This document shows positions 15,774-29,451 of a DNA stretch of 64,000 nucleotides, one piece after another. This stretch comes from an uncultured SAR116 cluster alpha proteobacterium. Lineage in GTDB: Bacteria; Pseudomonadota; Alphaproteobacteria; Puniceispirillales; Marisalimonadaceae. The translations under genes were made by a program, and so were the position numbers. The stretch lies in assembly GCA_902615025.1 (NCBI GenBank), contig CACMNV010000002.1:106868-170867 (forward strand). Reading direction: 5' to 3'. Position 1 is the stretch's first letter; each line of letters starts with the position of its first letter. The notes below the pieces were generated by a model. That model did not search any database. It worked only from the letters and a program-made list of their open reading frames with translations, and had not been told where the DNA came from.

Positions 15774-16442
15774 TTATTCTCTTCTCAAAACTTTTGTAAT
15801 TATTTTTTCAAAAAATTTATTTTCAGAAAAAATTGCTTCTAATTCTTGAGGTTTGTATATATTTCTTGTCCAATAGATAAAATCTGCATTTTTAGTTTTT
15901 TTATAATATTTGATGTAAAGATCACAAAAAGCATCAAGTATACCAGTCTTTGCGTGTTTTATATGAAGATATTTTAATGAAAGTTGTTTTTTTGCCACTT
16001 CTGGATTTTCTTTAGATTTTAAAACTTTAAAAAGAAATGCTATAATGCCAGCTCTATCAGCTCCAGATTTGCAATGAATTAAGGCTGGGTATTTTATTGA
16101 GTTAAAAACTGCGTTAGCTTTAAAAATCATATTTTTATCTGGTGCTGCACGTGATCGAGCTACTAAGTTTACAAGTTCTATTCCATTTTGCTCACATGCT
16201 TGTTTTTCAAGAAACCAGCCACCATCTTTTTTCCCACCTCGAAGGTTGATAATAGTTTTGATTCCAAGTTTTTTATATTTTTTAATTCTTTGAGGAGTCG
16301 GCATATTAGATCTATACATATTATCATCAATTTTATGAAAATTATTATATAATAGTCTTAAAAAACCATGATCAACTATCATCATTTCATACCAATATCT
16401 TAAAATTTTAAGTTTACTTTTAGGTATTAGATCCCCCTGCAA
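15774..16442 (-). CDS. Tyrosine/dual-specificity phosphatase family protein
   Basis: A 222-residue protein with the cysteine-phosphatase signature HCKSGADRAG (C-x5-R) near residue 122. An upstream conserved acidic/loop region reads LGIKTIINLRGGKKDGGW. This fold covers protein, phosphoinositide and lipid phosphatases. The ATG lies 23 bp inside the upstream pmbA gene, so translation is coupled. Its place next to lipid A genes raises the possibility of a lipid or envelope phosphatase role. That is inference; substrate is unknown. Confidence 0.8.
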   Translation of the reverse strand: MQGDLIPKSKLKILRYWYEMMIVDHGFLRLLYNNFHKIDDNMYRSNMPTPQRIKKYKKLGIKTIINLRGGKKDGGWFLEKQACEQNGIELVNLVARSRAAPDKNMIFKANAVFNSIKYPALIHCKSGADRAGIIAFLFKVLKSKENPEVAKKQLSLKYLHIKHAKTGILDAFCDLYIKYYKKTKNADFIYWTRNIYKPQELEAIFSENKFFEKIITKVLRRE

Positions 16443-17781
16443 TTGTCATTTCATTAATTAATATGCTAGGTGTAGAAATGGTTGAATTTAAATCTAAGTT
16501 ATTTGCAGGCACCATTTGTAAAAACATTTCTTTTAAATTTCCTGCAATAGTAGCTTCAGATATCGGGTTCGAGAGTTTGCCATTTTTAATCCAAAATCCA
16601 CTGGCTCCTCTACTATAATCACCAGTAATTAAAGAAACGCTTGATCCGAGTAATTCTGTAATATAAAACCCATTTGAAATATTTTTTATCATATCTTTTT
16701 CATCAATATTGCCCGGCATAATCATAGCATTACTTACGCCTATCCCTGGAGGTGAAGTCAAGCTTCTTATAGCATTACAGTTAGTATTCAAACCTAACTG
16801 TCTTGCTGATGAAAGGTTAAGCAGATAATTTTTTAATATCCCATTAGAAACAAGCTCCATTTTTTTTGTTCCTAAACCCTCTGCATCAAATAATTTTGAC
16901 CCTAATCCTTTGCTTAAATGTGGGTCATCAACGACATTTATTTTACTATTGAATATATGTTCATTTAGTTTTCCTTTTAAAAAACTTGTTCCACTTATAA
17001 TTGAAGTTCCATTAATTCCAGAAATTATATGGCTTAGAATTGATTTAGCTACCCTTGGTTCAAAAATTACTGGGAATTTACCTGTCGGTGCTTTAGTAGA
17101 TCCAATCTTATCTAAAACCTTTTTAGCAACTCTCCTAGCTATTAATTTTGGTTCTTCAATATCATTATAAAATACCTTTGAAGAATAATCATAATCTCTT
17201 ACCATTTTATCTGATTTAGATGCTATGAGGGTCAAAGAACTTAAATTGTTTGATTTAAAATGTTTGTTATGAAAATTATTGCTATTAGAATAATAAATTT
17301 CGCTCTTAGTCCACGCTACTTGAACTCCATCACTAACTAATTGATTAGAAAAATTTAGAGCATGATTTTCTATTTCATTAGCCCTAGTCTCTAATTGATC
17401 AATTGAGGGTTCAAAACAATCATTTGTAAGAATTTTAACTTTTTTATTAATAGGATTCTGATCCATATCATTTTTTGTGGCAATGCCACTAAAATTATCT
17501 TCAGGTGAAACTTCAGCAATTTTTGCAGCTTTATCAGCTAATTTTATTAATGATTTTTCATCAATTTTATTTGTTGAAAGTATAGAAAACTTTTTCCCTT
17601 TAAATACTCTAATTCCAATATTGTATGTATCAAATTCTTCTATTTTTTCTTTTACATTATTTCTAACTTCTAATGATTTTCCATAGCTTTTTGATATAAT
17701 AACTTCAGTATCAGTAGCACTATTTTTTTTTGATTTATCAAGCAATATAGAGATTATTTCATTTGTTTTGTACGTTTTCAT
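16420..17781 (-). CDS. pmbA: TldE/PmbA metalloprotease-family subunit
   Basis: A 453-residue member of the TldD/PmbA family. TldE (PmbA) forms a heterodimer with TldD that degrades or matures small peptides; the catalytic zinc site lies in TldD, whose gene is in this window at 28.0-29.5 kb. Family blocks seen here include VIFEPRVAKSILSHIISGINGTSI near residue 240 and LTGDYSRGASGFWI near residue 385. It lacks the HExxxH zinc motif, as TldE should. It overlaps the phosphatase gene by 23 bp and is divergent from argC. Confidence 0.93.
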   Translation of the reverse strand: MKTYKTNEIISILLDKSKKNSATDTEVIISKSYGKSLEVRNNVKEKIEEFDTYNIGIRVFKGKKFSILSTNKIDEKSLIKLADKAAKIAEVSPEDNFSGIATKNDMDQNPINKKVKILTNDCFEPSIDQLETRANEIENHALNFSNQLVSDGVQVAWTKSEIYYSNSNNFHNKHFKSNNLSSLTLIASKSDKMVRDYDYSSKVFYNDIEEPKLIARRVAKKVLDKIGSTKAPTGKFPVIFEPRVAKSILSHIISGINGTSIISGTSFLKGKLNEHIFNSKINVVDDPHLSKGLGSKLFDAEGLGTKKMELVSNGILKNYLLNLSSARQLGLNTNCNAIRSLTSPPGIGVSNAMIMPGNIDEKDMIKNISNGFYITELLGSSVSLITGDYSRGASGFWIKNGKLSNPISEATIAGNLKEMFLQMVPANNLDLNSTISTPSILINEMTIAGGSNT

Positions 17782-17854: not shown

Positions 17855-18796
17855 ATGATAAAAAAAGTTTTTATTGATGGTGAAGAAGGAACTACAGGAC
17901 TTCAAATTTATGAAAGATTAGAAAAACATCCAAATATAAAAGTCATTAAAATTGATCCTAATAAAAGAAAGAATTTATTAGTGAAAAAGGAAATGATGAA
18001 AAAGGCTGATCTAGTATTTTTGTGTTTACCTGATACAGCCTCACGAGAAGCTGTTGCTTTAGGAAAAGAACTTGAAGAACATTGTCCTATTTTTATAGAT
18101 GCTTCCACAGCACACAGAACTTCTGCAATGTGGAGCTATGGATTGCCTGAATTATCAGATCAATACAGAAATAATATAAATAAATCTAATTTAATTGCAG
18201 TTCCTGGATGTTATGCAACAGGATCAAATCTAATTATATTTCCATTGATAAAGATGGGATTAATTTCTAATTCTCATCAGTTTATAATTCAAGCAGTCAG
18301 TGGGTTTAGTGGAGGTGGCAAAAATTTAATTGAATACCAGAATAATAATGATTCCCCCTTTTTTTACTATGGGTTAAATTTAAGTCATAAACATCTCCCA
18401 GAAATTAAATTTCATTGTGGTTTAGAAAATAATCCAATTTTTTTACCATCGGTCGCAAATTTTTATCAAGGTATGATTGTAAATTTATTTTTGACCATAA
18501 AAGATTTTGAAAAAGAGACCTCTTTTTTTGAAATTGAAAGTTTTTTCAGCGACTATTATCAAAATCAACAATTTATTAAAGTTAAATCTAATGATGACAT
18601 TCAATTGCCTGATGGTTTTTATAAACCAAACTTAATAGTAAATTCTAACGATGTTGAAATTAATTTTTTTAAAAACACAAATAGTTGTCAATTAATAATT
18701 TCTGCAAATTTTGATAATCTTGGAAAAGGAGCTTCTGCTGCAGCAATTCAATGTATGAATTTAAGATTTGGTTTTGATGAAATATTAGGTTTGTAG
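17855..18796 (+). CDS. argC: N-acetyl-gamma-glutamyl-phosphate reductase (short type)
   Basis: NADPH-dependent third step of arginine synthesis. At 313 residues it matches the shorter ArgC class common in proteobacteria. The N-terminus reads KKVFIDGEEGTTGLQIYERL (a Rossmann start). The catalytic cysteine is in PGCYATGSNL near residue 120, and the substrate region SGFSGGGKNLIEY is near 150. HKHLPEIKFH carries the conserved histidine. GAGGA lies 6-7 bp upstream of the ATG. The next gene starts 5 bp after its stop, so they share a transcript. Confidence 0.94.
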   Translation: MIKKVFIDGEEGTTGLQIYERLEKHPNIKVIKIDPNKRKNLLVKKEMMKKADLVFLCLPDTASREAVALGKELEEHCPIFIDASTAHRTSAMWSYGLPELSDQYRNNINKSNLIAVPGCYATGSNLIIFPLIKMGLISNSHQFIIQAVSGFSGGGKNLIEYQNNNDSPFFYYGLNLSHKHLPEIKFHCGLENNPIFLPSVANFYQGMIVNLFLTIKDFEKETSFFEIESFFSDYYQNQQFIKVKSNDDIQLPDGFYKPNLIVNSNDVEINFFKNTNSCQLIISANFDNLGKGASAAAIQCMNLRFGFDEILGL

Positions 18797-18801
18797 TTGT
18801 A

Positions 18802-19575
18802 ATGGAATGTTTTGTTCATGCAGATAAAAAATATTTCCCAGAATATAACTGGTTTGAAAAAGCAATAAGTTACCCTTATAAAGCACCTACAACCTCTTTT
18901 ACATTCAAGAATGGACAATTTTATCAAGGGATACACATATCACTTAAAGATAGAGTTCCAATTATATCTATTGGATCTAATAGATCTCCATATCAATTAA
19001 AAAATAAATTTGGTTTAAAAGAGAATCTATGCGTAACTCCAGCAAAATTATATAATTCTGTGATTGTTTATGCGGCCTCAATGTCAGCATACGGTTCTAT
19101 TCCTGCAACTCAGTGGCCTTGCGAAGGATCAGTGTCTAATTTGAATTTACTTTGGTTAAATCAAGATCAATTGCAAATCATGCACCTTTCAGAGGGTTTG
19201 GGAATAGCTTATCATTACGTAGAATTAGATAAAAATACAGTTACTATTCAAGAAAATGATTATTCTGGCCCTATTTTTGGGTACATTTCAACTAGAGGAG
19301 GGTATTTGTTTGATGGAAATGAACCATTAAGATTAAAAAATATAAAATCAAACACAAATAAACATTCATCTATTAATGAGTTTCAAGCATTAAATAAATT
19401 ATTTTTAGAAAATCCAGATGGTCAAACTTCTTTAGAAATTTGGTTAAAAAACTTGATTTCTAATAAGAGTAAAAGACTCTCATTAATCGACAAAATGTCA
19501 AAAAAATGCTTTTTGCCTAAGCATGTTCCTTGGAAAATTTTGGATTTAAAAGTTAATGGTAACAATATTTATTAA
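18802..19575 (+). CDS. Uncharacterised protein, possible gamma-glutamylcyclotransferase-like fold
   Basis: A 257-residue protein, not securely recognised. One stretch, IISIGSNRSPYQLKNKFG (about residues 53-70), looks like the YGSN...PxxL substrate-loop motif of gamma-glutamylcyclotransferase folds. A matching YAASMSAYGSIPATQWP segment follows, then LNQDQLQIMHLSEG (about 115-135), which resembles the part of such folds carrying the conserved acidic residue. No signal peptide or membrane segment is seen. It starts 5 bp after argC, so it is co-transcribed, and it lies upstream of proteorhodopsin. A role in glutamyl or peptide metabolism is a guess from fold and context. Confidence 0.5.
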   Translation: MECFVHADKKYFPEYNWFEKAISYPYKAPTTSFTFKNGQFYQGIHISLKDRVPIISIGSNRSPYQLKNKFGLKENLCVTPAKLYNSVIVYAASMSAYGSIPATQWPCEGSVSNLNLLWLNQDQLQIMHLSEGLGIAYHYVELDKNTVTIQENDYSGPIFGYISTRGGYLFDGNEPLRLKNIKSNTNKHSSINEFQALNKLFLENPDGQTSLEIWLKNLISNKSKRLSLIDKMSKKCFLPKHVPWKILDLKVNGNNIY

Positions 19576-19831: not shown

Positions 19832-20593
19832 ATGTCGTTCAAATTTTTAAAATATATATTACCAGCAATTTTATTTGCTGGACTACCAACTTTAAGTTTT
19901 GCTTCTGGCAACTTAGAGCCTACAGATCCAGTAGGTATTACATTTTGGATCATCTCAATTGCTATGGTAGCAGCAGCCACATTCTTTTTCTTAGAATCAT
20001 TAAGATTTGAAGGGAAATGGAGAACTTCTTTAGTTGTTGGCGGCTTAGTATGTATGGTTGCAGCAGTCCACTATTTTTACATGAGAGATGTTTGGGTTTC
20101 CACTGGAGCATCACCTACTGTATTCAGATATGTAGACTGGATTATTACTGTTCCATTACAAATGATTGAGTTCTACATTATACTAGCAGCTTGTACAACC
20201 ATTGCAATGGGTGTGTTTTGGAGACTATTTATAGGTTCCGTAATAATGCTTGTTGGTGGATATTTAGGTGAAGCTGGTTTCATTAATGCAACACTAGGTT
20301 TCGTAATCGGAATGGCTGGTTGGATATACATTCTTTATGAGATTTTTGCTGGTGAAGCTGGTAAAGTAAGTGCATCAGATGCACCTGAAGCTGTTCAATC
20401 TGGATTTGCAACAATGAGATGGATTGTTACAATTGGATGGGCTATTTATCCAATAGGCTATTTCGTAGGTTATATGGCTGGAGGCGCTGACGCTAACAGT
20501 CTAAATATGATCTATAACATTGCTGATGTTTTAAATAAAATTGGATTTTGTTTAGCAATTTGGGCAGCTGCGGACTCTACTGCAAAAGCTTAA
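19832..20593 (+). CDS. Proteorhodopsin, light-driven proton pump (predicted blue-absorbing)
   Basis: Seven-helix retinal protein of the inner membrane, 253 residues, with a cleavable signal peptide ending near SFASG (residue 26). Comparison with green proteorhodopsin gives an offset of five. The Schiff-base lysine is K236 in LNKIGFCLAIW. The counterion/proton acceptor is D102 and the proton donor E113, both in VDWIITVPLQMIEFY. The conserved counterion-partner histidine is H80. The carboxylate pair marks an outward proton pump. Position 110 (canonical 105) is Gln, the residue of blue-tuned forms. It is followed by a terminator and then the retinal genes. Confidence 0.97.
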   Translation: MSFKFLKYILPAILFAGLPTLSFASGNLEPTDPVGITFWIISIAMVAAATFFFLESLRFEGKWRTSLVVGGLVCMVAAVHYFYMRDVWVSTGASPTVFRYVDWIITVPLQMIEFYIILAACTTIAMGVFWRLFIGSVIMLVGGYLGEAGFINATLGFVIGMAGWIYILYEIFAGEAGKVSASDAPEAVQSGFATMRWIVTIGWAIYPIGYFVGYMAGGADANSLNMIYNIADVLNKIGFCLAIWAAADSTAKA

Positions 20594-20615
20594 ACCTAAC
20601 ATAATTTTTATAAAG

Positions 20616-20644
20616 GCCAGTCCATTTGGGCTGGCTTTTTTTTT
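20616..20644 (+). terminator. Rho-independent terminator after proteorhodopsin
   Basis: GCCAGTCC-attt-GGGCTGGC forms an 8-bp stem with one G-U pair and a 4-base loop, followed by nine T. It starts 22 bases after the opsin stop and is the most GC-rich hairpin I found in the window. crtI begins 24 bases further on. Confidence 0.85.
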
Positions 20645-20654
20645 AATCTAAATT

Positions 20655-20660
20655 TAAAAT
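20655..20660 (+). promoter_or_regulatory. Possible -10 box of crtI
   Basis: TAAAAT (5 of 6 consensus bases) ends 8 bases before the crtI ATG, and no Shine-Dalgarno is present. It could start a leaderless crt message independent of the opsin terminator. No good -35 is visible. Confidence 0.25.
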
Positions 20661-20668
20661 ATCTATAT

Positions 20669-22147
20669 ATGAGAAAGCAAAAGAAAATAAATTCAATTGT
20701 TGTCGGATCAGGTTTTGGTGGTATTGCAAGTGCTCTCAGACTAAGAGCTTTAGGACATAATGTAACTTTGGTTGATAGATTACCAGAAATTGGTGGTAGA
20801 GCTCAAGTTTTTAATTTAAGAGGATTTAAGCATGATGCTGGTCCTACCGTTATTACTGCTCCATTTATGTTTGACGAGTTATTTAGTTTATTTGGAGAGG
20901 ACAGAGAAAAATATCTAAAATTTGTCCCTTTAGATCCATGGTACAGATTTTATTTTCATGATAAATCATCTTTTGATTATCGTAAAACTGTTAAAGATAC
21001 GAAACGTGAAATTAAAAAATTTTCAAAAGATGACGCGGAAGGTTATGAAAAGTTGTTAAATATATCAAAAAATATATTTGATATTGGTTTTACTCAATTA
21101 TCAGATAAGCCATTTAATTCCTTTTGGTTCATGTGCAAACAAATACCAGCATTAATAAAATTAAAAGCTCATTTAACAGTTTCACAATTAGTTGGAAGAT
21201 ACTTAAAAAATGAGAAAATACGTTCAGCATTTTCTATCCATCCTTTACTTGTTGGAGGAAATCCTTTTAATACAACTTCTATTTATGCGTTAATTCACTA
21301 TCTAGAGAGAAATTGGGGAGTATATTTTTGTATGGGTGGAACAGGAAAAATTATAACAGAATTAAAAAAATTAATGTTAAGGCAAAAAATTGAAATAAAA
21401 TTAAATATAGATATAAAAAATGTTAACATAGAAAGCGGAAAGATTATTTCTATATCAGATAATAATAATAATCTTTATAAATGTGATAAATTAATTTTCA
21501 ATGGTGATCCTCCGACCTTTTATAAAGAAATTTTAAAAACAAAGAAAAGAAAAAAATTTTTACCTGAATTATTTACAAAGTATTCGATGGGAATGTTTGT
21601 TCTTTTTTTTGGAACGACTAAAATTTATCCAAAAGTTGCACATCATACTATATGGATGGGCAAAAGATTTGAGGGCTTGTTAAAAGATATATTTGACAAA
21701 AAAATTCTTGCCAAAGATTTTTCTCTTTATATTCATAGACCTACAGCTACAGATAAAAGTTTTGCTCCTAAAGGGTGTGATAGTTTTTATGTTTTGTGTC
21801 CAGTCCCAAATTTACAAGGTAAAGTTGATTGGAAGGTTGAAGGTGATAAGTTGAGAGAAAGAATAATTGAAAGTTTAGATAAAACTATATTACCCAAATT
21901 AAAGCAAAGTATTTGTAATGATTTTTATATGACGCCTAATGAATTTAAAAATCAATATAGGTCAATGCATGGCGCTGGTTTTTCAATTGCTCCTATATTC
22001 TTGCAATCAGCTTGGTTTAGATATCATAATAAAGACAAGCATATTGAGAACTTATATTTTGCTTCCTCTGGCGCTCATCCTGGAGCAGGCATACCAGGAG
22101 TATTATCATCAGCAAAAGTGGTTGAAAATATTATTTTAAATGAGTAA
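20669..22147 (+). CDS. crtI: Phytoene desaturase
   Basis: FAD-dependent enzyme that desaturates phytoene to lycopene. The 492-residue protein begins with the dinucleotide-binding motif VVGSGFGGIASALRLRALGH, followed by GGRAQVFNLRGFKHDAGPTVI. The C-terminus has the carotenoid-desaturase block ASSGAHPGAGIPGVLSSAKV near residue 470. It leads the retinal cassette crtI-crtB-crtY-blh and overlaps crtB by 8 bp. The start has no Shine-Dalgarno sequence, in contrast to the opsin gene just upstream. Confidence 0.96.
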   Translation: MRKQKKINSIVVGSGFGGIASALRLRALGHNVTLVDRLPEIGGRAQVFNLRGFKHDAGPTVITAPFMFDELFSLFGEDREKYLKFVPLDPWYRFYFHDKSSFDYRKTVKDTKREIKKFSKDDAEGYEKLLNISKNIFDIGFTQLSDKPFNSFWFMCKQIPALIKLKAHLTVSQLVGRYLKNEKIRSAFSIHPLLVGGNPFNTTSIYALIHYLERNWGVYFCMGGTGKIITELKKLMLRQKIEIKLNIDIKNVNIESGKIISISDNNNNLYKCDKLIFNGDPPTFYKEILKTKKRKKFLPELFTKYSMGMFVLFFGTTKIYPKVAHHTIWMGKRFEGLLKDIFDKKILAKDFSLYIHRPTATDKSFAPKGCDSFYVLCPVPNLQGKVDWKVEGDKLRERIIESLDKTILPKLKQSICNDFYMTPNEFKNQYRSMHGAGFSIAPIFLQSAWFRYHNKDKHIENLYFASSGAHPGAGIPGVLSSAKVVENIILNE

Positions 22148-23039
22148 TCATCTAGAAATTCTGAAACAAAATGGAAAAAGTTTTTATTGGGCTGGTAAAT
22201 TATTGCCAAAAAAATATCTCATTAGATGTGCTAAATTATACTCATTTTGTAGACTGTTGGATGATATAGCTGATACTAAAACAAAAGATGAAAATTTAAT
22301 GAAGTTAAACTATATCTTAGATTTAATTAAAAAAAATGATTATCAAAAATTAGAAAATAATAATATTTATATCCCTAGTTACTTGAAAAATTGTGAGTTA
22401 GCCAAAAGTAAAATTATAGATCTTATTCATGGTTTAATCTTTGATCAAAAATTAGTTAGAATAAAAAATGAAAAACAATTAATTTTATATTGTTATAGAG
22501 TTGCAGGCACTGTAGGCGTGTTAATGTGTATTGCTCTTGAATGCAAAGATAAAAATTCTTTAAATTTTGCTACTGATTTAGGTATAGCTATGCAGTTGAC
22601 TAATATATTAAGAGATATAGAAGAAGATGCAAAACTTAATAGACGTTACTTGCCAGGCAAATTTATTAATGATTTAACTCCAAAGGAAATTTTAATTTTA
22701 ACTGAAGATTATAATCATTCGAATCACTCAATTTTAAAAGATGCTATAAAAAAAATTTTACTGATTTCTGAATTATATTACAGAAGTGGAAATAAAGGAT
22801 TAGTTTTTTTAAAATTTAAATTTAGAATTGCTATTGGTATTGCTTCAAATATTTATAGAGAAATTGGAGTTAAATTAAAAAAAAATAATCTTGTTTGGTA
22901 TAGAGGAAGAATATATACAACAAATTTTGAAAAACTTAGACTTTCATTAAAAACTTTTATAAATGTATTTGTTTTTTTCACACTGAAATCTCCAAAACAT
23001 GATCAAAGTTTGCATAGACATTTAAAAGAGATTTTATGA
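22140..23039 (+). CDS. crtB: Phytoene synthase
   Basis: Condenses two geranylgeranyl diphosphates to phytoene. The 299-residue protein has the first aspartate-rich motif as LLDDIADT near residue 40 and the second as LTNILRDIEEDAKLNRRYLP near residue 155, both required for Mg-diphosphate binding. It overlaps crtI by 8 bp and crtY by 4 bp, so translation is coupled. Squalene/hopanoid synthases share the fold, but the setting in a crt operon settles the function. Confidence 0.95.
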   Translation: MSNHLEILKQNGKSFYWAGKLLPKKYLIRCAKLYSFCRLLDDIADTKTKDENLMKLNYILDLIKKNDYQKLENNNIYIPSYLKNCELAKSKIIDLIHGLIFDQKLVRIKNEKQLILYCYRVAGTVGVLMCIALECKDKNSLNFATDLGIAMQLTNILRDIEEDAKLNRRYLPGKFINDLTPKEILILTEDYNHSNHSILKDAIKKILLISELYYRSGNKGLVFLKFKFRIAIGIASNIYREIGVKLKKNNLVWYRGRIYTTNFEKLRLSLKTFINVFVFFTLKSPKHDQSLHRHLKEIL

Positions 23040-24136
23040 AAAAAAAAAAAATAAACATCTTTGGTGGTGGTTGTGCAGGGTTTTCTTTCATAAGGAGATC
23101 ACAAGAAGTTAAAGATGCGACATTTAAATTTTATTTAGGGACTGAAAATGGTGAAAAAGACCATTATTGGGGTTTTTGGAGCAATAAATATTCTTATGAT
23201 TTTGATGAAATTTGTCTTAAATGGAACAAATGGAAAATTATAAATTACAGGAATGAAAAAACATTTTATTCGAACCAGCATCCTTATTGTTTAATTAACA
23301 AAAAAAAATGGATAAATTTTTGTAAGGGAAAAACACATAATTCAAATGTAAAAATAATAAAGAAAAAGGTTGAAGATATAAATTCAAAATTTTTTGTCGA
23401 TAAAAAACTTATTGAAGGAGATTATTTTTTTGATTGTAGGAATATAACCTTTAATAAAAATATTTTATTACAGCATTTTATAGGCTTAACTATTGAGACT
23501 AATGAAAATAAATTTGACCCATCTACTGTCATCCTTATGGATTTTAGATGCAATCAATCGCGTGGGTTACATTTTATATATGTTATACCTTTTTCAAAGA
23601 AAAAAGCATTAGTAGAGTCTACTTTATTTTCAAAAAATGTTGAAGATAGAAAATTTTATTTAAGTGCTATTAATTCTTATTTAAAAGAAAATTTTAATAT
23701 TAATTTTTTTAAAGTGCTTAAAGAAGAAAAAGGTATAATACCAATGCAATATATGAATTTTTCACTAGAAAATTCTGTTAGTATTGGAACGAGAGGTGGG
23801 GCAACAAAACCTTCTTCGGGTTATACTTTTATTTACATTCAAAAGCAAATTAGTAATATTATTTATCAATTAAATAATAACTTAAAAATTAATAATTTTA
23901 TCCATACTAAATTTAGTCTATTCATGGATAAAATTTTTATAAAAGCTCTGGAAAAAAATCCAAAGATTTTTCCAGATTTATTTTATAAAATGAATAGTAG
24001 ATTATCTGGAGATGAAATGGCCTTATTTATGAATGGCAATCAAAGTTTGAAGACTTGGTTAAAAATTATATATTCTTTACCAAAACTATTATTTTTGCAT
24101 GCAATATGGCAGTGTATAAAAGAAATTGAAAATTAA
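23036..24136 (+). CDS. crtY: Lycopene beta-cyclase, CrtY type
   Basis: Cyclises lycopene to beta-carotene. The 366-residue protein starts with a flavin/dinucleotide site, INIFGGGCAGFSFIRRSQE. Later family blocks include HFIGLTIETNENKFDPSTVILMDFR (about residues 145-170) and RGGATKPSSGYTF near residue 260. It is slightly shorter than many CrtY proteins and diverged. The gene order between crtB and blh supports the call strongly. It overlaps crtB by 4 bp and ends 3 bp before blh. Confidence 0.88.
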   Translation: MKKKKINIFGGGCAGFSFIRRSQEVKDATFKFYLGTENGEKDHYWGFWSNKYSYDFDEICLKWNKWKIINYRNEKTFYSNQHPYCLINKKKWINFCKGKTHNSNVKIIKKKVEDINSKFFVDKKLIEGDYFFDCRNITFNKNILLQHFIGLTIETNENKFDPSTVILMDFRCNQSRGLHFIYVIPFSKKKALVESTLFSKNVEDRKFYLSAINSYLKENFNINFFKVLKEEKGIIPMQYMNFSLENSVSIGTRGGATKPSSGYTFIYIQKQISNIIYQLNNNLKINNFIHTKFSLFMDKIFIKALEKNPKIFPDLFYKMNSRLSGDEMALFMNGNQSLKTWLKIIYSLPKLLFLHAIWQCIKEIEN

Positions 24137-24139
24137 TTA

Positions 24140-24949
24140 ATGTTTGATTTATTGGATTATTTATCTTTGATTTTAATTTTTATTTTTGGAGTTCCTCATG
24201 GTGCTTTTGATGCTTCAATAGCATTAACATTAGGTTATTATAAGAATTTAAAATCAAAATTTTTTTTTATATTGTGTTATTTATTCCTAGCCTTAGTTAT
24301 TGTATTAATGTGGTATTTAATCCCTAATATTACTCTGATTATTTTCCTGTTTGTAAGTATTATTCATTTTGGACTGGGTGATATAAGTTGGTCTAAAAGC
24401 TATAAATGTTATTTATCAGCTTACATAAATGGAGGAATTGTAATTTTTGGAATCAGTTTTTTTCATTTCAATGAAGTTAATTCAATTTACCAAATTCTTT
24501 TAAATAATCACAACACTGGTAATCTTTGGCTAATTTTAAAATATGGCTTATACCTATGGTTAATATTATTGCCATTTCACTTTTATATAAATTTTGATGA
24601 AATAAAAAAAAATTACATTATTCGTATTTCTTTAATATCAATGATAATTTATACAACAAATGCAATTTTCGCTTTTTCTTTTTACTTTTGTTTCATCCAT
24701 AGTTTTAACCACATCAAAAGAATATTGCCATCATTAAGAAATAATTTGTCTGATAAAAATATTAGAAATATGTTTTTATTTTTTACGTTTTTAACTTGGG
24801 TTTTAGGTTTTTTGATTTTAACACACTTGAATTATAATAGTTCTTTAGATCACTCTATAATCAAAGTAACTTTTATTGGTCTTGCTGCATTAACCTTTCC
24901 TCATATGATATTAGTAGATCTATATTTTAGACCATCTCTAAAAATTTAG
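24140..24949 (+). CDS. blh: Brp/Blh-family beta-carotene 15,15'-dioxygenase
   Basis: Membrane enzyme that cleaves beta-carotene into two retinals, the proteorhodopsin chromophore. The 269 residues form several hydrophobic helices with conserved histidines. GVPHGAFDASIAL is near residue 19, IIHFGLGDISWSK near 74, CFIHSFNHIKRILP near 182 and LTFPHMILVDLYF at the end. This pattern matches Brp/Blh proteins. It closes the retinal operon, and its last 23 bp overlap the convergent ubiA gene. Confidence 0.93.
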   Translation: MFDLLDYLSLILIFIFGVPHGAFDASIALTLGYYKNLKSKFFFILCYLFLALVIVLMWYLIPNITLIIFLFVSIIHFGLGDISWSKSYKCYLSAYINGGIVIFGISFFHFNEVNSIYQILLNNHNTGNLWLILKYGLYLWLILLPFHFYINFDEIKKNYIIRISLISMIIYTTNAIFAFSFYFCFIHSFNHIKRILPSLRNNLSDKNIRNMFLFFTFLTWVLGFLILTHLNYNSSLDHSIIKVTFIGLAALTFPHMILVDLYFRPSLKI

Positions 24950-25835
24950 ATATTGATCCTAAAGTTAAAAATAACCCTGCAATCTTATTAGATTTAAATA
25001 GTTTTAATGCCTCTTTTCTATCAATGGTTTTTGCCTTTTTAATTTGATATGTAAAGTGAATAAGCATAAAAAATAGACCTATATACCAACCAAAATGTAT
25101 TTTTAAAATAATTCCTGCTATAAGAAAATTTAAGATAGAAATTATGTAGAAGAACATTATAAATTTAACATAATAATCTTCAGTTGTTATTGCTGTATTG
25201 TTTATTTTATAGACTTTATCTTCAGATTTATCTTGATAACCATATATAGTGTCATAACCTATGATCCAAAAAACAGTTCCTAAATAAAGAAAAAAAATTC
25301 CAATATTAAATTCTGTATCAGTAGCAGCCCACGCTGTGGGAACTCCCCAACTAAATGTTATTCCTAATACAAATTGAGGCCATTTTGTTACTCTTTTTGC
25401 GAGTGGATATAATATAATTAATGGGAGAGAAGATAAAGCGATTAACCAAGTAAATTTGTTTAAGTTTAATAAGCACAATAAAGAAACTGTCAAAAGAATT
25501 AATAAAAATCCAAAAGCCTCTTTTGGAGATATTTCTCCACTTGCAATTGGCCTTAAACGAGTTCTAGAAATTTTTCTGTCAATATCCCTATCCCATAGAT
25601 CATTAATTATACAGCCAGCTGCTCTCATTGAAAAAGCACCGATTATGAATATTAAGTATATTTCAAATAATTTAGTTATTGAATCTAAAAAAATTGGAAT
25701 TGTCCAAAGGCATGGAAGTAATAATAGCCAACTTCCTATTGGCCTGTCGAACCTACCTAACCTAATCCATTTATGAGTTGTTTTTGGTAATTTATCCCAC
25801 CAACCATTTTCAGGCATGTCTGTTTTTATTTTCAT
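24927..25835 (-). CDS. ubiA: 4-hydroxybenzoate polyprenyltransferase
   Basis: Integral membrane prenyltransferase of ubiquinone synthesis. The first Asp-rich motif is NDLWDRDIDRKISRTRLRP near residue 75 and the second YGYQDKSEDKVYKI near residue 195. The N-terminal block RLGRFDRPIGSWLLLLPCLW is typical. The ORF track extends 40 residues further upstream to 25955. I choose the internal ATG at 25835 (MKIKTDMPENGWW), because the extension has no family similarity and overlaps divergent rsmE. That gives about 302 residues, the usual length. Confidence 0.93.
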   Translation of the reverse strand: MKIKTDMPENGWWDKLPKTTHKWIRLGRFDRPIGSWLLLLPCLWTIPIFLDSITKLFEIYLIFIIGAFSMRAAGCIINDLWDRDIDRKISRTRLRPIASGEISPKEAFGFLLILLTVSLLCLLNLNKFTWLIALSSLPLIILYPLAKRVTKWPQFVLGITFSWGVPTAWAATDTEFNIGIFFLYLGTVFWIIGYDTIYGYQDKSEDKVYKINNTAITTEDYYVKFIMFFYIISILNFLIAGIILKIHFGWYIGLFFMLIHFTYQIKKAKTIDRKEALKLFKSNKIAGLFLTLGSISKFLEMV

Positions 25836-25888
25836 ATTTAAAAGTAAATATATGTATAAATTATTGTTATTGTATATGATAAATAAAA

Positions 25889-26635
25889 ATGAAAACAAAA
25901 TTAAATAAAATGATAAGAATATATTGTAGTCAAAAACTCTCTTTAAATAAGGCAATTGTATTAACGCAAAATGACACTCACTACCTGAAGAATGTGATGC
26001 GATGCAAAGAAAATGATCAAATTAATTTATTTAATGAGAACGATAAGGAGTTTTTTTCTAAAATAGTAAAAATACAAAAAGATGAAACAACCTTAAAAAT
26101 TTTTGAACCCTCAAAAAATACTGAAATTCTTAATGATATTTTTCTTATCTTTTCATTAGTAAAAAAAAATAAAATTGATTTTATTGTACAAAAAGCAACG
26201 GAGTTAGGTGTAAAGAAGATTTTTCCAATTTTAACTGAAAGATCATCTATCAGAGATATAAATATGAATAGAATGTATGCTATTGCTAGGGAAGCTAGCG
26301 AACAGTCAAATAGAATTTCAATTCCAGAAATTAGTGATTTACAGACAATACAGGCGTTATTGAAAAAATGGGATAAAAATAGAAGTATTTTATATGCAGA
26401 TGAAATTTTAAAAACTAATAAAAATTTAACTATCCTAAATAAAAAAAATTTTGTTAAATCATCTTTATTAATTGGACCAGAAGGTGGGTTTTCTATGGAA
26501 GAGAATGAGATGTTAAAAACTTTTAAATTCGTTTTTCCTATAAGTTTCGGTAAGACCATTTTAAGATCTGATACTGCTGCAATAGTTGGTCTATCTTATT
26601 TAAATATAATTAACTCAAGTTATAAGATAAATTAA
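25889..26635 (+). CDS. rsmE: 16S rRNA (uracil1498-N3)-methyltransferase
   Basis: SPOUT-class methyltransferase acting on U1498 of 16S rRNA. The 248 residues include VQKATELGVKKIFPILTERSS near residue 95 and the knot motifs LLIGPEGGFSMEENEML near residue 195 and LRSDTAAIVGLSYLN near the end. An alternative ATG at 25910 (MIRIYCSQ) is nearer the usual RsmE N-terminus and may be the true start. It is divergent from ubiA and followed 21 bp later by gshA. Confidence 0.94.
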   Translation: MKTKLNKMIRIYCSQKLSLNKAIVLTQNDTHYLKNVMRCKENDQINLFNENDKEFFSKIVKIQKDETTLKIFEPSKNTEILNDIFLIFSLVKKNKIDFIVQKATELGVKKIFPILTERSSIRDINMNRMYAIAREASEQSNRISIPEISDLQTIQALLKKWDKNRSILYADEILKTNKNLTILNKKNFVKSSLLIGPEGGFSMEENEMLKTFKFVFPISFGKTILRSDTAAIVGLSYLNIINSSYKIN

Positions 26636-26656: not shown

Positions 26657-28009
26657 ATGGACAATAAAAAAACATTAACTCTTGATAAAATTTTCCAGTG
26701 GTTCAAAAAAGGTGAAAAGAAAAGAGATGAGTGGCTTATTGGAACTGAACATGAAAAATTTTTATTTAAAAAAAATGACTTTAAAAGATTGGGTTATGAA
26801 GATTTAAATGGAATAAAAACTATTCTAAGCAAAATTGCAGAAGAAGAAGATTGGGAGAAAATTAATGAAGGTAACAATTTAATTGGATTGAAACATAAAT
26901 CAGGTTCTTCTATATCTCTTGAACCTGGAGGACAATTTGAATTATCTGGTGCACCTTTAAGAAACTTACACATGACATGTAATGAAGCGGGTTTGCATCT
27001 GAATTTGATGAGAAAAATTTCTAACGAGTTGGATTTTGTGATGCTTGGATTGGGATTTGATCCTATTTCGAAAAGAGATCAAATAAATTGGATGCCAAAA
27101 AACAGATATGAAATTATGAAAAATCATATGCCAAAAGTTGGAAACCTTGGAATAGACATGATGATAAGAACTTGTACCATACAGGTTAATTTAGATTATT
27201 CAGATGAAATGGATATGGTTAAAAAATTTAAAACTTCTTTGGCATTGCAACCTATTGCAACTGCTTTATTTTCAAATTCTCCATTTATTGAAGGTAAAAT
27301 CAGTAACTATTCATCTTTAAGGGCTTACACTTGGACAGATACAGATAGTAAAAGATCTGGTTTCCCTGATATTGTTTTTAGTAAAGATTTTGGATATGAA
27401 GCTTGGATAGAATATCTTTTATCTGTACCAATGTATTTTGTTTATGACAAAGGCACATATCATAATGTTGCTGGAAAATCATTTGCAAAATTTTTGAATG
27501 GAAAATTGGATGAGTTTGAAGGTAAATTTCCTACAATGTCAGATTGGGAAGATCATGTGACTGTTGCTTTCCCTGAGGTTAGATTAAAACAATACTTAGA
27601 GATGAGAGGTGCGGATGGAGGTCCATGGAATAGAATTTGTGCGTTACCTGCTTTTTGGGTAGGGCTTTTATATGATGAAAAAAGTTTAGATGAAGCGTTC
27701 CATGTTGCAAAAAAATTTATGAATGTCCCCTTGTTAGAAGAAAGTAGAATCTCTGCTGCTAAATTTGGATTAGATGGGATTATAGGTTCATCTAAAATAA
27801 TTAATGTAGCTAAAGATCTTTTGAATATCTCTTATGAAGGTCTTAAGAGAAGAAATTTTAAAGATAGAAATGGGGTGAGTGAAACACAATTTTTAGACCC
27901 ATTATTAAATATGTTAGAAAATCAAGAAACATCGGCCGATGAGTTGTTAAGAAAATTTAATGGTGTTTGGGAAAAAGATATTAGTAAAATTTTTACAATT
28001 AATAACTAA
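26657..28009 (+). CDS. gshA: Glutamate--cysteine ligase (plant/alphaproteobacterial type)
   Basis: First step of glutathione synthesis. The 450-residue protein has the GCS2-type N-terminus WLIGTEHEKFLFKK near residue 26, with the metal-binding glutamates. SLEPGGQFELSGAPL is near residue 90, and MIRTCTIQVNLDY near 170. This is the class shared by plants and alphaproteobacteria, not the enterobacterial one. gshB is not in the window. The 3' end overlaps convergent tldD by 4 bp. Confidence 0.94.
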   Translation: MDNKKTLTLDKIFQWFKKGEKKRDEWLIGTEHEKFLFKKNDFKRLGYEDLNGIKTILSKIAEEEDWEKINEGNNLIGLKHKSGSSISLEPGGQFELSGAPLRNLHMTCNEAGLHLNLMRKISNELDFVMLGLGFDPISKRDQINWMPKNRYEIMKNHMPKVGNLGIDMMIRTCTIQVNLDYSDEMDMVKKFKTSLALQPIATALFSNSPFIEGKISNYSSLRAYTWTDTDSKRSGFPDIVFSKDFGYEAWIEYLLSVPMYFVYDKGTYHNVAGKSFAKFLNGKLDEFEGKFPTMSDWEDHVTVAFPEVRLKQYLEMRGADGGPWNRICALPAFWVGLLYDEKSLDEAFHVAKKFMNVPLLEESRISAAKFGLDGIIGSSKIINVAKDLLNISYEGLKRRNFKDRNGVSETQFLDPLLNMLENQETSADELLRKFNGVWEKDISKIFTINN

Positions 28010-29451
28010 ATATTTGTTCCACCAATAGTAATGCCGTCCATCAATAATGTAGGTTGTCCAACACCCACAGGTACACCTTGACCATCTTTTCCACAAGTGC
28101 CAATACCTTCATCAAGTTTAAGATCGTTTCCGATCATTTTAATCTTGTGCATTGCATTTGCTCCATTACCAATCAAAGTAGCTCCTTTTATTGGAAACTT
28201 AATTTTACCATTTTCAATCATATAAGCTTCTGATGAAGAAAAAACAAAGTCACCGCTAGTAATGTCAACTTGACCTCCTCCAAAATTCACAGCATAGATA
28301 CCCTTATCTACACTTTCTATGATTTCTTTTGAAGAGAAAGAACCATTATCTAGGTAAGTATTTGTCATCCTTGGCATAGGGCAATGAGCAAAAGATTGTC
28401 TTCTTCCATTACCGGTGGGTTCAACATTCATTAAATAAGCGTTTTGAGTGTCTTGCATATATTTTACAAGTATTCCATCTTCAATTAGTAAGTTTTTTTG
28501 TGAAGGTACTCCTTCATCATCAATTGTTAATGAACCTCTTCTATTAATAATTGTTCCATCATCAAATACGTTTACACCTTTAGAGGCAACTCTCTCTCCA
28601 ATTTTATTTGAATACAGTGATGTACCTTTTCTATTGAAATCACCTTCTAATCCATGCCCAACTGCTTCATGTAACATAACTCCTGGCCAACCATGACCTA
28701 GAACAACAGGTAACTCGCCTGCTGGAGCAGGTTTGGCATCCAAATTTAAAACAGCTAACCTTAATGCCTCTTTAACTTTTCTTTTCCAGTTTTTTTCGTC
28801 AATCCATTCATCATATAAAGATCTCCCCCCGTAGCCAGAAGACCCAAAAGATTTTTTATCATTTGATTCAACAACTATTTGAACATTGAATCTTACTAAA
28901 GGTCTTAAATCAGCATGATTTTCATAATCTTTTTTTAATATTTGAATATGTGAATAACTTCCTGTTAGTGAGATTGACACTTGAACAACTCTATTATCTA
29001 ATTTTCTTGCAAAATTATTTATCTTTTCTAAAAGCATAATTTTTTTTGAAAATTCTAAGTTTGTCAGTGGATTTTTAGAAATATATAGTGGTTTAATGTT
29101 CTGATTTTTTTTATAAACTGTATCATCCTTATTTTTTGAGTTAATAATTGAATTAACTGTTTTTGAAGCATTAATTATATTTTCATAAGAAATATTATCT
29201 GAACTTGAGAAGGCTACGGTATCGTCTTTAATAGATCTAAAACCAAAACCTTGAGATGAACTTTGTGATATATTTTGTATTCTTGAATCTGTAAAATAAA
29301 GTGTTTCAAAATCTGTATTTTCAAAATAAAGTTCCCCACCATTACAATTATTTAATGTACTATTAACACAGTCGAACGTCTTATTTTTAGAGATGTCATT
29401 ATCTTCAAAAAATAATTTATCAGTTGATTTTATCGTATCTTGTTCAGACAT
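28006..29451 (-). CDS. tldD: TldD metalloprotease subunit
   Basis: Catalytic partner of TldE/PmbA. The 481-residue protein has the zinc motif HEAVGHGLEGDFNRKGTS near residue 262, with the HExxxH core. The C-terminus has GTCGKDGQGVPVGVGQPTLLMDG, characteristic of TldD. The partner pmbA lies about 10 kb away on the same strand, on the other side of the opsin cassette. It is divergent from coxB. Confidence 0.95.
   Translation of the reverse strand: MSEQDTIKSTDKLFFEDNDISKNKTFDCVNSTLNNCNGGELYFENTDFETLYFTDSRIQNISQSSSQGFGFRSIKDDTVAFSSSDNISYENIINASKTVNSIINSKNKDDTVYKKNQNIKPLYISKNPLTNLEFSKKIMLLEKINNFARKLDNRVVQVSISLTGSYSHIQILKKDYENHADLRPLVRFNVQIVVESNDKKSFGSSGYGGRSLYDEWIDEKNWKRKVKEALRLAVLNLDAKPAPAGELPVVLGHGWPGVMLHEAVGHGLEGDFNRKGTSLYSNKIGERVASKGVNVFDDGTIINRRGSLTIDDEGVPSQKNLLIEDGILVKYMQDTQNAYLMNVEPTGNGRRQSFAHCPMPRMTNTYLDNGSFSSKEIIESVDKGIYAVNFGGGQVDITSGDFVFSSSEAYMIENGKIKFPIKGATLIGNGANAMHKIKMIGNDLKLDEGIGTCGKDGQGVPVGVGQPTLLMDGITIGGTNI

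Follow-up and report, generated by a model that had tools for sequence, protein, structure and literature searches.

The GGCT-like gene and its surroundings

The window analyzed in this study (the whole stretch of DNA, 64,000 nucleotides in length, part of a genome of the SAR116 group, order Puniceispirillales) carries an open reading frame at positions 18802-19575 (+ strand) that starts with an ATG codon and encodes a divergent protein of 257 amino acids with a predicted γ-glutamylcyclotransferase (GGCT)-type fold; we refer to it as the GGCT-like gene. Its position is as described in the initial annotation of this DNA region: the type 2 argC gene (17855-18796, +), which scores above the NCBIfam TIGR01851 cut-off, ends 5 bp upstream, and a proteorhodopsin gene (19832-20593, +; PF01036) follows after 256 bp as the first gene of a cassette. 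This proteorhodopsin has the motif TVPLQ at its spectral tuning position, presumably reflecting tuning to blue light. When the GGCT-like gene was compared with its congeneric orthologues, dN/dS values of 0.13-0.35 were obtained, an indication of purifying selection, and these values, together with the presence of homologues across the Alphaproteobacteria, establish that it is a real gene. From the short intergenic distance and its conservation we infer that argC and the GGCT-like gene are co-transcribed; a scan for promoters and terminators gave results no better than those for shuffled sequences.

Further conserved neighbors are found on both sides of this gene pair. A pmbA-type metalloprotease gene (16420-17781, −) lies upstream of argC, and downstream of the proteorhodopsin-carotenoid/retinal cassette (19832-24949) follow ubiA (24927-25955, −), a gene for an rsmE-type 16S rRNA methyltransferase (25889-26635, +) and gshA (26657-28009, +), which codes for glutamate-cysteine ligase (TIGR01436, 538 bits against a cut-off of 463; PF04107). 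The pmbA gene and a tldD-like gene (28006-29451), both on the minus strand, bracket the entire block.

Fold and family of the encoded protein

The initial annotation had assigned the whole protein to no known family, and our library searches agree with this: neither the GGCT-like protein nor 13 of its relatives gave a credible match in Pfam, in NCBIfam or, by sequence, in the PDB. None of these proteins reached the curated cut-offs for GGACT (PF06094) or AIG2_2 (PF13772), and none matched the ChaC profile (PF04752). A single distant family member aligned in the right region with PF06094, at a sub-threshold score (E 0.006; 17.5 bits, cut-off 22.8).

The cyclotransferase-like fold that had been suggested from a few peptide segments was borne out by structure modeling and profile comparison. 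An AlphaFold2 model of the GGCT-like protein built with 49 sequences (pLDDT 91.5, pTM 0.89) retrieved human GGCT as the first match in a Foldseek search of the PDB (E 1.3e-4, probability 1.00), followed by AIG2-like proteins, ChaC2, PH0828, YkqA and GGACT, with GGCT-fold proteins through rank 8 and beyond. A second model in which a divergent family member was placed in front (pLDDT 92.1) led to the same fold in the PDB, and the top matches in BFVD included viral AIG2-like proteins. The TM-scores were modest (0.39/0.58; query-normalized 0.36-0.39) because only about 120 residues are common to both proteins in such a comparison. Among the Foldseek matches were also allophanate hydrolase and part of a chromatophore transit peptide from Paulinella.

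The profile-profile comparison points in the same direction. With hhalign, the family matched eight AIG2_2 (AIG2-like) proteins from the same class with an E-value of 3.1e-5 and a score of 38.9, while nine unrelated neighboring families that served as decoys all yielded E-values of at least 0.19; a reversed profile gave E 0.88, and none of 20 column shuffles did better than E 0.053 (score 18.7). HHsuite itself assigned a probability of 73% to the AIG2-like match; the template alignment was small, which probably lowered this figure. We consider the GGCT fold confirmed computationally, that is, at the level of sequence profiles and predicted structures.

Homologues were present in 30 of 41 close genomes and in 61 of 288 genomes from the class Alphaproteobacteria. 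A sample of the phylum contained them in 4 of 249 genomes, all alphaproteobacterial, and a wide distribution of the family was therefore rejected at this depth of sampling. A search of viral contigs recovered no relatives, a plasmid search returned one weak actinobacterial match that carries no annotation, and a description of the family was not found in the literature. On the strength of these comparisons we file the GGCT-like protein as representing its own, so far uncatalogued, putative GGCT-fold family of Alphaproteobacteria. A conserved family that none of the libraries used here names, and that occurs in about a fifth of the sampled alphaproteobacterial genomes and in most genomes of SAR116, an abundant ocean group, thereby gains a predicted fold, a putative catalytic residue and a testable reaction.

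Conserved residues and the putative active site

Conservation within the family was counted in an alignment of 67 sequences, in which residues A21, Y24, P25, G58, N60, P63, V78, E131 and Y161 are invariant (67/67). The first three of these belong to an N-terminal motif, A..YPYxAP (residues 21-29; 18862-18888, +), which further contains Y26 (61/67) and P29 (65/67) and lies outside the GGCT-like core delimited by the AlphaFold2 model, Foldseek and hhalign (residues about 52-166; 18955-19299, +). A C-terminal helical region (residues about 193-233; 19378-19500, +) was assigned by DSSP from the model; its Arg225 is found in 65 of the 67 sequences.

The peptides IGSNRSPYQL (residues 57-66), YGSIPAT (97-103) and HLSEG (128-132), which had been read as cyclotransferase loops in the initial annotation, all occur in the protein, and for two of them the reading holds. 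The segment ISIGSNRSPYQL (residues 55-66; 18964-18999, +), with IGSNRSP in it, is paired by hhalign with the substrate-binding YGSN loop, the Tyr of which is replaced by Ile or Val, and HLSEG corresponds to the catalytic ..EG motif. YGSIPAT (19090-19110, +), despite its likeness to the YGS loop, pairs with the later ..IATI.. strand of GGCT. Within the loop, S59 (65/67) stands between the invariant G58 and N60, and the residue at the Tyr position of YGS, residue 57, is Val in 44, Ile in 11, Cys in three and Tyr in another three of the 67 sequences. As the YGS loop is reported to contact the substrate via backbone amides (PMC12756093), the loss of this Tyr is compatible with enzymatic activity.

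Glu131 (19192-19194, +), embedded in MHLSEG and conserved in every sequence, is the putative catalytic acid/base and supplies the glutamate anticipated for a protein of this type. hhalign pairs it with the Glu that AIG2-like proteins carry in their ..EG motif; when an AIG2_2 member is aligned with human GGCT, this Glu is, counting along the chain, Glu98, the acid/base of the human enzyme (PMC7022552). Catalytic roles for the Glu at this position and for the loop backbone amides are described (PMC12756093, PMC7022552). Tyr161 (19282-19284, +) appears to be the counterpart of the strand-9 Tyr, since hhalign aligns it with a conserved Tyr of AIG2-like proteins, and Tyr137 (19210-19212, +; Tyr in 66/67) may correspond, by its spacing and with an ambiguous position in hhalign, to the strand-8 Tyr (Tyr105 of human GGCT). 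A diverged tandem paralogue at L145:8423-9265, located beside a regular copy, has an LGGNASP loop and DIELG in place of HxTEG.

Among the known groups, GGCT/AIG2-like proteins (PF13772 AIG2_2; human GGCT 3cry, 2i5t) provide both the best fold match and the best profile match, and share with the GGCT-like protein a succession of motifs that runs from the GSN loop through the ..AT..p..G strand and the ..EG with its putative catalytic Glu to the apparent strand-9 Tyr. In contrast to them, the GGCT-like protein lacks the YGSN Tyr in most members, is longer (257 versus about 140-190 amino acids), adds the N-terminal YPYxAP segment and the C-terminal helices, and stays below every Pfam cut-off. GGACT (PF06094) is alike in fold, but its profile-profile match is weak (E 0.04), and the GGCT-like protein itself does not match it. 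ChaC (PF04752; human ChaC2 6ky0, 6ky1) resembles it in fold and in the position of the catalytic Glu, whereas the ChaC profile does not detect it and a separate, true ChaC is encoded in the same genome. Judged by its predicted fold and putative catalytic Glu, the GGCT-like protein is a member of the GGCT-fold superfamily, a remote relative of enzymes that cleave γ-glutamyl compounds, glutathione among them, and it falls outside the library definitions of GGACT, AIG2_2 and ChaC.

Gene neighborhood and candidate functions

The tight pairing of the GGCT-like gene with argC had led the initial annotation to suggest a new link to the arginine/glutamate pathway, a functional tie that we now regard as highly improbable. 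In its favor, 67 of 79 clustered loci have argC directly upstream in the same orientation, mostly with gaps of less than 40 bp; all of these loci are on SAR116-type contigs. Outside the SAR116 order, where about 7 kb on each side of the gene were inspected as far as the contig allowed, argC was found near the family gene in 0 of 55 loci. Moreover, the SAR116 genus g8 lacks the GGCT-like gene in all four of its genomes (4/4) and keeps argC, gshA and ChaC; at the junctions read in G031 and G037 (L239, L240), argC is followed directly by ubiA-rsmE-gshA, a clean loss of the intervening gene. The substrate of the ArgC enzyme, N-acetyl-γ-glutamyl phosphate, is not a γ-amide either. The SAR116-restricted pairing and the loss in g8 beside an intact argC mark the pair as a local arrangement, and the arginine connection, tempting as it was, is rejected on present evidence; the loss also indicates that at least one lineage can do without the GGCT-like gene.

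The adjacency to proteorhodopsin is owed to a cassette that only one family carries at this position. In the family to which the window belongs, this cassette separates the argC/GGCT-like pair from ubiA-rsmE-gshA; in other SAR116 lineages it is absent from the same place, and the GGCT-like gene abuts ubiA. What does recur when the neighbors are surveyed in other genomes is a different set of genes: among the 55 loci outside SAR116, gshA is found in 26, rsmE in 26, ubiA in 27, ubiD in 29 and pmbA/tldD in 28, counts that are not independent since related genomes inherit their gene order. A DUF4170 gene, a candidate functional partner, sits directly before the family gene or, often, overlaps it in 13 of the 55 loci.

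The linkage with gshA, which in the window is found on the far side of the proteorhodopsin cassette, about 7 kb downstream, suggests a glutathione connection, as does its occurrence in 60 of the 61 genomes with the GGCT-like gene compared with 219 of 288 overall. One could therefore envisage that the protein degrades glutathione itself, as a second glutathione cyclotransferase; we think this rather unlikely. Genome size acts as a confounder of the co-occurrence, the ubiA-rsmE-gshA block exists without the GGCT-like gene, and genus g8 retains gshA and ChaC in its absence. Furthermore, a canonical ChaC, the only PF04752 match of the genome, is encoded about 21 kb away (G000:C2:104405-104902), and ChaC occurs in 35 of the 41 genomes searched; none of the 17 searched genomes of the order that are near-complete lacks it. 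Bulk glutathione breakdown is thus probably the task of ChaC, and the GGCT-like protein probably serves another γ-glutamyl compound. We would likewise call it unlikely that the protein is non-catalytic or differently catalytic, with a role in binding, regulation, other acyl transfer or hydrolysis. The missing YGS Tyr, the extra N- and C-terminal regions and the other uses of the fold seen among the Foldseek matches speak for such a role, but the invariance of Glu131 and of the loop Gly, Asn and Pro residues would be unusual for a degenerate active site.

The explanation that we favor, and hold to be reasonably probable, is that the product of the GGCT-like gene is a cytosolic enzyme with the GGCT/BtrG fold, from its own uncatalogued alphaproteobacterial family, that acts as a cyclotransferase with Glu131. 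The fold, the loop, Glu131 at the catalytic position and the purifying selection on the gene come directly from the computation; that the protein is catalytic and forms 5-oxoproline we infer from them. The absence of the YGS Tyr in most members counts against this explanation, as do the modest TM-scores, the HHsuite probability and the occurrence of the fold in non-cyclotransferase domains. In the proposed mechanism, the IGSNRSP loop would bind the γ-glutamyl substrate through its backbone amides and Glu131 would deprotonate the substrate amine; this amine would then attack the γ-amide carbon, 5-oxoproline would leave, and Glu131 would return the proton to the departing amine. More tentatively, and with somewhat less than even confidence, the family may constitute a further γ-glutamylcyclotransferase family, distinct from GGCT, GGACT and ChaC; its substrate would be a γ-glutamyl metabolite of Alphaproteobacteria, and the YPYxAP segment and the Tyr-less YGS loop would give the substrate pocket its shape.

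In addition to ChaC and the GGCT-like gene, the genome contains, at L225:2133-3594, an AIG2-like gene situated near a gene for a glutathione-dependent disulfide-bond oxidoreductase (NF008731). Three GGCT-fold genes in one small genome raise the question of which γ-glutamyl compounds are turned over. As an outlet for 5-oxoproline, PxpA (PF03746) is absent from the family to which the window belongs; a fused hydantoinase/oxoprolinase-type gene is present in the genome, and its predicted product of 1207 amino acids could consume 5-oxoproline, or could be a hydantoinase instead of a 5-oxoprolinase.
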